Shown here in pieces: positions 1,684 through 3,513 of a stretch of DNA of 15,378 bases. The DNA comes from an uncultured bacterium (GTDB lineage: Bacteria; Cyanobacteriota; Vampirovibrionia; Gastranaerophilales; Gastranaerophilaceae). Made by a program: the position numbers and the translations under genes. The DNA is taken from the NCBI GenBank assembly GCA_948888345.1, contig CAQTPN010000003.1:2780-18157 (forward strand). The letters run 5' to 3'. The notes below the pieces were generated by a model. It ran no database searches. It worked only from the letters and a program-made list of their open reading frames with translations, and had not been told where the DNA came from. Each line of letters starts with the position of its first letter. The stretch's first letter is position 1.

Positions 1684-2615
1684 CTTCTAAGTTCCTCTTT
1701 TAAGTTATTAAAATCTTTAAAGCCTTGTCTTTCAATAAATTCAGCTAATTCAAAGACAAGTTTTTCAGCTATATCAGGGTTTGTAAAGTTTTCTGTACCG
1801 ATTTGCACCGCATCTGCTCCCACTGCAACAAATTCAAGTACATCTTTTAAGCATGAAATTCCGCCTAAACCAATAATAGGAAGGGTTATAGCCTCTTTAA
1901 TTCTTTTTATCATTGAAAGTGCTACAGGTTTAACGCATTTTCCGCTTAAACCGCCTTGGACAAAGCTTTTTGATACTTTTGCACCATTAAAATTTAATTC
2001 AACCCCAAGACCTTTAAGTGTATTTATGGCTGAAATACAATCAGCACCGGCATTTTGAGCGGCAACAGCCAATTCTTCAATATTTGTAACATTTGGAGTT
2101 AATTTTACAATTAAAAAGCCTTTATATTTTTCCCTTATACCCGAAATTAAGTCGTAGAGGCAATTTTTATCCGTTCCAAATTCAAGACAGCCGGATTTAA
2201 CATTCGGACAGGATACATTTGTTTCAATGGCCTCAATTCCTTTATTTTCACAGATTTCAGCCAGTTTAACATAATCTTCGACAGTCTTTCCTGCTATGTT
2301 TAAAACAAAGTTTACCCCTTTTTCCTTTAATTTCGGCAATTTATCGGATATAAAAGCTTCAATCCCAACATTTTCAAGGCCTATACGGTTTATCATTCCG
2401 CCATAGGTTTCAAATATACGCTTTCCGTCATTTCCGGAGCGCACTTCAAGCGTAACCCCCTTGGTTACAATTGCACCAATATTTTTAACATCAAAAAATA
2501 CATCAAATTCATCACAATATCCGTATGTTCCGGATGCAGTCATAATGGGATTTTTCATTTTAAATTTTTTAAAATCAACCAATAAATCTATATTTTTTTC
2601 AGCTATTCTTCCCAT
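1680..2615 (-). CDS. pyrD: Dihydroorotate dehydrogenase, class 1B catalytic subunit
   Basis: This FMN-containing subunit oxidises dihydroorotate to orotate and passes electrons to PyrK, which reduces NAD. Visible are the FMN-site NPIMTASGTYG (22-32), KGVTLEVRSGN (52-62), NVSCPNVKSGCLEFG (133-147) with the presumed catalytic base Cys136, KLTPNV (171-176), NTLKG (198-202) and the phosphate-binding IGLGGIS (248-254) and VQIGTE (270-275). The start was chosen at 2615 because GGAGG lies 4 bases before that ATG; a longer reading to 2654 would add 13 poor residues (MRGWPC...) that lie in pyrK sequence. The resulting 311 residues match class 1B enzymes. It overlaps the pyrK end by 13 bases and the pyrE start by 4. 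Where most class 1B enzymes have two glycines after SCPNVK, the second is Cys143 here. Confidence 0.96.
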   Translation of the reverse strand: MGRIAEKNIDLLVDFKKFKMKNPIMTASGTYGYCDEFDVFFDVKNIGAIVTKGVTLEVRSGNDGKRIFETYGGMINRIGLENVGIEAFISDKLPKLKEKGVNFVLNIAGKTVEDYVKLAEICENKGIEAIETNVSCPNVKSGCLEFGTDKNCLYDLISGIREKYKGFLIVKLTPNVTNIEELAVAAQNAGADCISAINTLKGLGVELNFNGAKVSKSFVQGGLSGKCVKPVALSMIKRIKEAITLPIIGLGGISCLKDVLEFVAVGADAVQIGTENFTNPDIAEKLVFELAEFIERQGFKDFNNLKEELRR

Positions 2616-3472
2616 ATAACCTCCGAACCGCAAAATACAGGGCCATCCGCGCATACAGAAGCATTTTTGGGCCCGTTTTCAGTATTTAAGCGGATAACGC
2701 ACCCTCTGCATACCCCGATACCGCAGGCCATAACCTTCTCCATTGCAATTTCAGCCTTAATATCATTTTTCTTTGCAATATCGCAAACCATCTCTAAAAC
2801 CACTCTTGGCCCGCATGAATAAATAATTTCAGGCTTAAATTCATCAATCAGGGTTTGAATATTATCAAGAACGCTGCCGCCTATAACTGTTTTGTCAGAG
2901 CCTTTTACAACCTCAGCTTCATCTTTAAAGCCGGATATTAAGTATGTTTCAACGCTTTTTTTCTGTAAAGTTTTTTTAAGATAGAGCATTGGTGCTATTC
3001 CAATGCCTGCACCAATCAAAAGGGCCTTTTGACCTTCTTTTGCAAGGGTGAAGGTATTTCCTAACGGGGCTAAATAATCAATAGTATCACCGATTTTCAG
3101 GGTTTTAAGGTAATTTGTACCATCGCCTTTTACTTTAAAAATAACCGTAATAATACCTTTATAAGACCCTGAAACAAATTCAGGGTGACGGCCGCAGGGG
3201 CCCGAATTATCAACACGCACCGCAAAATCCGCTTCTTGGATTATTGCGGGTTCACAGCCTTCAACAGGCTGTTCACAGTGTGCGTTCGTTTCACTGCCAC
3301 GCACCGCAAAATCCGCAACACTAAAGGGGCGGCGCAAAGTTTTATCAGGAATTAAAACTGAAACAAACTGCCCCGGCAAAATGTCTTCAAGTTCAGTGGT
3401 AAAGCACATTTTTACCGTATCTTTTGCCACGGTTTCTATATTTAAAATTTTTCCTTTATGATTTTTTTTCAT
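2603..3472 (-). CDS. pyrK: Dihydroorotate dehydrogenase electron-transfer subunit, with an in-frame insertion
   Basis: PyrK carries FAD and a [2Fe-2S] cluster and moves electrons from PyrD to NAD. RRPFS at 47-51 is the FAD-binding motif, GDGTNYL (116-122) and APLGN (135-139) belong to the same domain, LLIGAGIGIAPM (151-162) starts the NAD-binding domain, and Cys250, Cys255, Cys258 and Cys274 are the cluster ligands. At 289 residues it is about 30-45 longer than usual. The surplus sits between RRPFSVAD and YKGIITVIFKVKGDGT, about residues 55-103, and is rich in Cys, Pro and Glu with ADFAVR twice. Its DNA is G+C-rich and palindromic (see the repeat entry). The frame stays open and all cofactor motifs persist, so the gene looks functional. 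The ATG at 3472 has only a weak GAG upstream, and an in-frame TGA 9 bases earlier excludes a longer start. It is the first gene of the pyr operon. Confidence 0.94.
   Translation of the reverse strand: MKKNHKGKILNIETVAKDTVKMCFTTELEDILPGQFVSVLIPDKTLRRPFSVADFAVRGSETNAHCEQPVEGCEPAIIQEADFAVRVDNSGPCGRHPEFVSGSYKGIITVIFKVKGDGTNYLKTLKIGDTIDYLAPLGNTFTLAKEGQKALLIGAGIGIAPMLYLKKTLQKKSVETYLISGFKDEAEVVKGSDKTVIGGSVLDNIQTLIDEFKPEIIYSCGPRVVLEMVCDIAKKNDIKAEIAMEKVMACGIGVCRGCVIRLNTENGPKNASVCADGPVFCGSEVIWEE
3164..3316 (-). repeat. In-frame palindromic insertion inside pyrK
   Basis: This stretch is foreign to the PyrK fold and differs in composition: I count 67 G+C in the 120 bases 3181-3300 (56%) against 17 in 60 (28%) in 3121-3180. 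It holds a 7-bp-stem hairpin CCCTGAA-ACAAA-TTCAGGG (3167-3185), a second 7-bp-stem hairpin with arms ACAGCCT/AGGCTGT (3254-3260 and 3266-3272), and a perfect 19-bp direct repeat CACGCACCGCAAAATCCGC at 3214-3232 and 3298-3316. The repeats are exactly 84 bases (28 codons) apart, preserving frame. The left hairpin encodes HPEFVSGS on the coding strand, a peptide I associate from memory with dispersed palindromic repeats that enter genes in frame. Boundaries are approximate. Whether it is a named repeat family cannot be settled from one copy. Confidence 0.72.
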
Positions 3473-3513
3473 ACTTTTAGCTCAAACTATTACTACACAA
3501 GCATTTAAGGTCA

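Follow-up and report, generated by a model that had tools for sequence, protein, structure and literature searches.

In-frame palindromic repeats are known in Rickettsia, in Wolbachia and in several small bacterial repeat families (PMC2229807, PMC10969869, PMC3733652). The RPEs are described as small, dispersed, hairpin-forming repeats that lie in frame within unrelated conserved genes (PMC2229807, PMC10969869), and those of R. conorii are reported to end in CGTC on one side (PMC3733652); the protein-coding palindromic repeats of Wolbachia are known to us from a cited title. CGTC REPs are defined by a CGTC tag, a stem of 8-9 bp and a loop of 4-5 nt; most have the tail CCA, almost all have A-T at the first and second stem positions, and intragenic units have been reported (PMC3733652). 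YPAL/RU-2 of Yersinia is described as a small repeat with empty and filled sites, whose targets span or adjoin a dyad symmetry (PMC2229807). IS200/IS605 elements are reported to use circular single strands (PMC6006769), and the TnpA-REP of E. coli to require a bulge in the stem (PMC8266576). The results of the current study add to these a dispersed family from the Gastranaerophilales, here called E1, one member of which lies in frame within a gene of pyrimidine biosynthesis.

The window, that is, the whole stretch of 15,378 nucleotides that was analysed, carries pyrK on the minus strand (2603..3472). The gene encodes the electron-transfer subunit of dihydroorotate dehydrogenase B with inserts (289 aa), as indicated by its open reading frame, by PF10418 and PF00970 and by the PDB relatives 1ep1_B and 5ksw_B; we take the genes beside it to be pyrD, pyrE and pyrB. 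A sequence-only reading of this DNA had proposed that PyrK contains about 45-50 extra residues encoded by G+C-rich DNA (56% against 28% nearby), with the frame and all cofactor motifs intact, and the present analysis bears this out. The stretch from RRPFS to FK measures 67 residues in the window and 19 in E1-free relatives such as P0005, so that 48 residues are extra between RRPFSV and ITV, the edges having been set with the closest E1-free PyrKs (P0005, P0006, P0008, P0009 and P0011), which read RRPFSVADFVEGIITV. The G+C content is 55.8% over 3181-3300, 28.3% over 3121-3180 and 35.9% in the whole window. The reading frame runs uninterrupted from 3472 to 2603, and both the Fe-S and the FAD domain were recognised in its product.

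The 48 residues derive from two different repeats. The mobile repeat proposed in the sequence-only reading is supported, in the form of E1, with the correction that the other hairpin belongs to a separate repeat alongside it. In the protein alignment and in the DNA, RRPFSV (3317..3334, minus strand), which we take to be the FAD-binding motif, lies immediately 5' of the insert. It is followed on the same strand by E1 (3234..3316), an 83-nt structured palindromic element with a three-way junction and the ends GCGGATTTT and AATAATCCAAGA, identified by a covariance model, by dispersed copies and by covariation, and then by a single A (3233..3233), which brings the net insertion to 84 bp, or 28 codons. 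Next come GCGGATTTT (3224..3232), encoding ADF and identical to the first 9 nt of E1; GCGGTGCGTG (3214..3223), 10 more nt that match the 5' end of E1 as a partial second copy; a linker with a short GGCC hairpin (3191..3213); and a CGTC-tagged REP-like hairpin that encodes HPEFVSGS (3166..3190), all on the minus strand. The 19-bp perfect direct repeat noticed earlier is exact (3214-3232 and 3298-3316, 84 from start to start), against a chance expectation of about 0.0004 for such 19-mers in the window. Judged by its sequence, this repeat is the 5' end of E1, and the 84-bp spacing, which had been read as a duplication formed on insertion or as nested insertions, is instead that of one 83-nt element plus one base, next to which stand the 9-bp host match and the 10-nt partial copy. 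Two hairpins are predicted in the insert, as claimed, with a stem of 7 bp in E1 but of 8 bp (ACCCTGAA/TTCAGGGT) in the other, for which 7 bp had been given. Folded together, the 171-nt insert region gives z = -2.56, and 3 of 200 shuffles fold equally well.

The second hairpin agrees with the definition of the CGTC REPs, having CGTC, 8 bp and a loop of 5 nt, but its tail is CTT, not CCA, and at the second position of the stem it has C-G where A-T would be usual. Palindromes of this type (up to two mismatches) were found in 11 of 12 genomes searched, with none in the reversed control; G023 has 254 copies, G001 and G040 have one each and G069 has none. At the same site in another PyrK, P0021, the peptide CHSELVSES can be read, from its residues, as a further CGTC-type palindrome.

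Comparison of E1 copies showed that the ends are fixed and that the inner part varies in length, the copies measuring 72-141 nt as matched. Folded alone as DNA, the window copy gives z = -4.0, which none of 200 shuffles equalled. In the consensus fold of 10 copies (RNAalifold), 24 pairs make up two side arms and a terminal stem in which a single T is unpaired; 98.3% of the cells are paired and 9 of the 24 pairs have changed on both sides. None of 500 shuffles reached these values, whether for cells paired, for pairs or cells changed on both sides or for the covariation score, while the number of further pair types showed no excess over shuffles (495/500). Among 62 matches fitted to the covariance model, an alignment thereby biased toward the structure, 19 of the 24 pairs have changed on both sides and the covariation score is 0.571, against 0.155 when shuffled. 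The model matches the window copy at 100.4 bits, this copy being in its training set. Taken from the aligned sequences, these patterns point firmly to a three-way-junction fold maintained by compensatory changes. The strand opposite to E1 is stop-free in 81, 62 and 85 of 105 distinct sequences, depending on the frame, which is far more often than in shuffled copies (about 34); both in-frame cases described below are nevertheless read on the forward strand.

E1 is a dispersed multicopy repeat of this Gastranaerophilales family. Dispersed copies had been predicted by the sequence-only reading, and when the 153-base segment was searched against G001 and G040, two genomes of one genus, 21 DNA matches were obtained with E values of 1 or less; the best three, all from G001, span window positions 3231-3316 over 86-87 nt with 86-88% identity. 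Both E1 ends with 50-80 nt between them occur in 100 of 383 family genomes, with zero matches in every row of the reversed control, and copy numbers by this pattern are highest in G133 (26), G023 (24), G044 (20) and G250 (20). The covariance model R1 raises the count to at least 127 of the 383 at E <= 0.001, a lower bound in part because the filters were stricter. In a sample of the phylum, the model found E1 in 25 of 244 genomes at E <= 1e-5, all 25 of them already in the family sample. The end pattern also matched 14 viral contigs, of which eight look E1-like by eye and six (L118, L122, L123, L124, L128 and L131) were set aside as chance-like. Five of the eight were compared with the model: L126, L121 and L119 match clearly, L120 weakly (E 0.004) and L125 not at all. 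In L130, another of the eight, E1 makes up the end of one of the open reading frames that, by resemblance, presumably represent phage head genes. The 153-base segment had no match in the phage and plasmid collections.

The pyrK site itself is variable. P0002 carries exactly 28 of the 48 extra residues of the window, and its comparison with P0011, made at the level of the proteins, shows identity at 243 of 245 shared residues; otherwise the two differ by one 28-residue gap at the site. Therefore, an 84-bp unit is present in one and absent from the other of two near-identical proteins, and we infer that these come from strains of one species, in which E1 would be polymorphic at strain level. The alignment comprised the window PyrK and 40 of the best 120 homologues among 5581, namely the 35 that ranked next below the window's own and five of lower rank, chosen partly for their length. 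E1-derived peptide stands at the ADF in six of these 41 PyrKs: the window, P0002, P0003 (partial), P0004, P0007 and P0012, the last with 25 codons. When the insert peptides of all six were compared by tblastn with a small set of E1 copies, each matched E1 DNA of other loci, at E values between 1e-5 and 1e-10; P0021 and P0023, the latter with another insert, do not match E1.

The host sequence at this site resembles the element. In G001 and G040, whose pyrK genes are without E1, the DNA at this site reads GCGGATTTT, the codons GCG GAT TTT for ADF, which are the first 9 nt of E1; none of the more distant pyrK loci compared has all 9 bases. We infer that host ADF codons matching the terminus of E1 make pyrK a preferred spot. 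In G001, about 22 other extra residues follow GCGGATTTT. In G040 (L009) the extra residues EAHSSENG stand there; their similarity to E1 is weak, and on this resemblance they may be a decayed scar of the element. The PyrKs of G001 (L001 3370-3560) and P0031 also contain a second long insertion, before ALLIGAGIG, which by eye is unrelated to E1.

Such a match at the target is what would be expected if a circular or tandem E1 unit had recombined with the host GCGGATTTT by short homology, in a Campbell-like manner, leaving GCGGATTTT on both sides. We regard this as the strongest of the rival explanations, although a doubtful one. One array period, usually the element plus one base (for example in G133:C19 and G156:C22), has the length of the net insertion, 84 bp; in P0002, P0004, P0007, P0012 and the window, the two copies of ADF are followed by the same residue; and 21 of 116 distinct E1 copies have a GCGGATT-like end at most 14 nt downstream. 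Against this reading, the 69 non-tandem sites, which by construction have no adjacent match, would need another route, and no circle was seen. By eye, the 21 downstream ends are mostly array, mosaic or partial copies, and the case for a guiding role of the 9-bp match in the explanation proposed below therefore comes from pyrK and at most L103.

A single old insertion in an ancestor, followed by many losses through precise deletion between the 9-bp repeats, appears less probable still, and we consider it unlikely. The 9-bp direct repeats could allow clean loss, and a partial remnant is seen in P0003 and perhaps in P0021. Against this, the E1 pattern needs six changes on the PyrK tree built with the insert region excluded (39 rows, P0034 and P0047 having been dropped as too short; 38 rows with six carriers in the count of changes, P0030, in which the site is deleted, being left out). 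A single clade of E1 carriers was rejected with p-AU 1.8e-57, for a group named after the inserts had been seen. In addition, the E1 of P0012 has 25 codons, not 28, and P0002 is nested in starred groups whose remaining rows are without E1.

In-frame copies in other genes had also been predicted, and one such gene was found, a Mu-like transposase gene. In L065, E1 is read in frame as EIQ-[28 residues]-EKL, in a frame just below our 120-aa rule and in a different phase from the copy in pyrK, and exactly 28 residues are missing at this site in P0129-P0131 and many other homologues, which confirm the insert. The homologues P0129, P0222, P0231 and P0123 have matches to phrog_310, a family of phage transposases, while the L065 fragment itself had no PHROG match. 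Over 27 residues, the peptide inserted in P0121 is the same as that translated from the E1 of L065 and from the E1 of L062, a copy at another place in another genome. L065 (160-270) and P0121-P0133 share a further stretch in frame, about 24 residues long (SKAFSSSLVEKVGASTTFNSFVPI), which P0151 and P0231 lack; the DNA that encodes it in L065 has no clear palindrome. A search with the insert peptide for further in-frame hosts gave, among 16 candidates, only three PyrKs, namely the one of the window itself (P0001), P0002 and P0007. In all, only two in-frame host genes of E1 were found, pyrK and the Mu-like transposase gene.

Insertions of E1 in coding sequence are rare, and its copies lie mostly outside long open frames. 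Among the 102 of the 116 copies with at least 150 bases on either side, a stop-free frame of at least 120 aa, with 30 aa on each side, runs through six (L038, L039, L064, L107, L214 and the window); pyrK of the window is the sole recognised gene among them, the other five having been judged by eye. Removal of E1 joins frames of at least 150 aa in five of the 102 (L149, L205, L214, L231 and the window). At the 69 distinct non-tandem sites, in an analysis restricted to non-viral loci and to copies that keep at least two of the four inner stem pairs, the preceding base is A in 53 and the following base is C in 49, and four sites come after a run of T. The T runs in L079, L080, L083 and L097 appear to belong to the T-tracts of intrinsic terminators, with E1 directly after them. 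In L072 and L069, by eye, E1 starts within the apparent stop codon of the upstream gene, its first G completing TAG. Six of the 69 sites fall in a loop that is closed by a perfect stem of at least 7 (shuffled mean 0.8, maximum 5 in 300); the effect is real, but it concerns about one site in ten, and hairpin-loop targeting was therefore rejected as a general rule.

Several copies lie in sequence that resembles the end of a tmRNA. In L061 (1400-1610), and also in L063, L064, L066 and L068, E1 stands within the T-arm-like stretch GGGTTCG|..|ACTCCCG. Interruption of tRNA or tmRNA by E1 was rejected, as the tmRNA is intact wherever it was found, namely near E1 in L061, L063 and L064 (ARAGORN); in L061, E1 lies in a 3' end of the tmRNA that is duplicated, probably the pattern left by mobile elements that integrate at ssrA. 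These five copies, together with the strong fold and its paired ends, would suit an intron-like E1 that is spliced from the transcript to leave a protein without the loop. We consider this very improbable, since no Rfam match lies over any copy tested (20 loci at the gathering score and 6 loci at E up to 0.5), an intron need not keep an open frame, and the nearby tmRNA genes are intact. A group II intron origin, suspected from the flanks in L040 and L042, was likewise dropped with no Rfam match, and the only Rfam matches in window positions 3000-3500 are two to mir-548, far under the gathering score. Least probable of all, and almost negligible, is an ordinary lineage-specific surface loop with repeats arisen by chance: its length does vary across relatives, but E1 DNA is dispersed, mostly outside long frames, with fold and ends conserved, the 28 residues are cleanly present or absent, and the close relatives do not all have the insert, P0005, P0006, P0008, P0009, P0011, G001 and G040 having no E1 in pyrK.

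The question of a surface loop, raised in the sequence-only reading, was put to a structure model. AlphaFold2, run on the window PyrK with the 41-row alignment, gave a mean pLDDT of 80.8, and the best PDB matches of the model are 4ylf_A, 5ksw_B and 1ep1_B. The insert falls between strands 47-57 and 106-113, and pLDDT is below 50 in its segments 61-80 and 85-101, as well as at 247-256 elsewhere. Because of this low pLDDT between two strands, the prediction suggests that the insert forms a disordered loop attached to the FAD domain, and PyrK with a flexible 28-residue loop probably survives as an enzyme.

We propose, with considerable confidence in the explanation as a whole, that E1 is a non-autonomous, mobile repeat with hairpin ends, which would be copied or moved in trans and would insert without target duplication. 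In pyrK, the 84-bp net insertion would have hit a turn that joins two strands in the FAD domain; as this length is a multiple of three, the frame is kept and the enzyme probably survives. A CGTC-type REP hairpin would have joined the insert beside E1. The GCGGATTTT host codons probably guide E1 to pyrK, by recognition of its end or by microhomology, and as GCGGATTTT is the 5' terminus of E1, this would explain repeated gain or loss at the site. No target-site duplication of E1 was seen, either in P0002 and P0011 at protein level or, by eye, in the flanks of the hairpin-loop sites, where one base is added; the GCGGATTTT flanking E1 in pyrK is not taken as a duplication because it is the element's own end in other copies.

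The weakest step of this proposal is the route of movement, for which single-stranded DNA handled by a Y1 (HUH) transposase is a tentative suggestion. The hairpin with its conserved unpaired T, the lack of target duplication and the arrays fit single-stranded HUH systems. Y1_Tnp is present in 11 of 18 E1-rich and 4 of 18 E1-poor genomes (Fisher p = 0.041, with kinship ignored and the sets picked by hand), and it is missing from seven E1-rich genomes (G001, G023, G040, G106, G156, G250 and G359). Paired E1 ends were found near Y1_Tnp in none of the eight loci examined, out of 19 matches, and a search that covered PF01797 revealed no cognate transposase with E1 ends. RAYT was rejected as the mobiliser of E1, given the weak association and the absence of flanking copies. 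More speculatively, and in our view improbably, E1 might exist as a circular single strand that uses its own 5' end as an address, docks by GCGGATTTT, finds in pyrK a recurrent site and is carried between species by Mu-like phages. If so, integration would occur mostly beside its own copies, giving arrays and mosaics, and a basic biosynthetic gene, pyrK, would serve as a docking site that gathers E1 subfamilies and then other repeats.

The near-identical filled and empty proteins, together with the solved fold of PyrK, make two old questions testable: how a repeat moves without a known enzyme, and what a newly acquired random loop does to an enzyme. They also carry a warning, as such loops in proteins from metagenomes can derive from repeat DNA and need not be domains. 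Among the matches listed, judged by titles and the openings of abstracts in a search whose scope left out most subscription papers and all preprints, we found no report of the E1 family; no paper joining Gastranaerophilales with repeat elements was found, and those that share E1 sequence words are unrelated by title.

Compared with the described systems, E1 combines features of several. A classical MITE would be expected to show a target-site duplication, and YPAL/RU-2, described as 168 bp long, has target duplications of 3-26 bp (PMC2229807), whereas E1 shows none. E1 is like YPAL/RU-2, on the other hand, in being a small repeat with empty and filled sites and with some targets at dyad symmetry. 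With the GTAG REPs and their RAYT (TnpA-REP), and with the ends of IS200/IS605, E1 shares an irregular stem, in the form of the unpaired T of its terminal stem, and the absence of target duplication; however, it starts with GCGG, has no GTAG or GTGG tag and is much longer, and it differs from the RAYT REPtron, in which repeats flank the transposase gene, in that none of the eight Y1_Tnp loci shows this arrangement. The CGTC-tagged REPs described by Di Nocera et al. 2013 (PMC3733652) resemble the second hairpin in tag, stem and loop, a type that is dispersed in the relatives, while E1 itself lies outside that class. The likeness to the Rickettsia and Wolbachia elements, claimed from the outset, holds in kind, as E1 too is dispersed, forms a stable hairpin with paired ends and lies in frame in unrelated genes, the comparison being one of descriptions. 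E1 differs from the RPEs in its length of 72-141 nt, its three-way junction, its ends GCGGATTTT/CCAAGA, its phylum and the two in-frame host genes found, and is thus a family of different architecture that performs in-frame insertion in gut relatives of Cyanobacteria.
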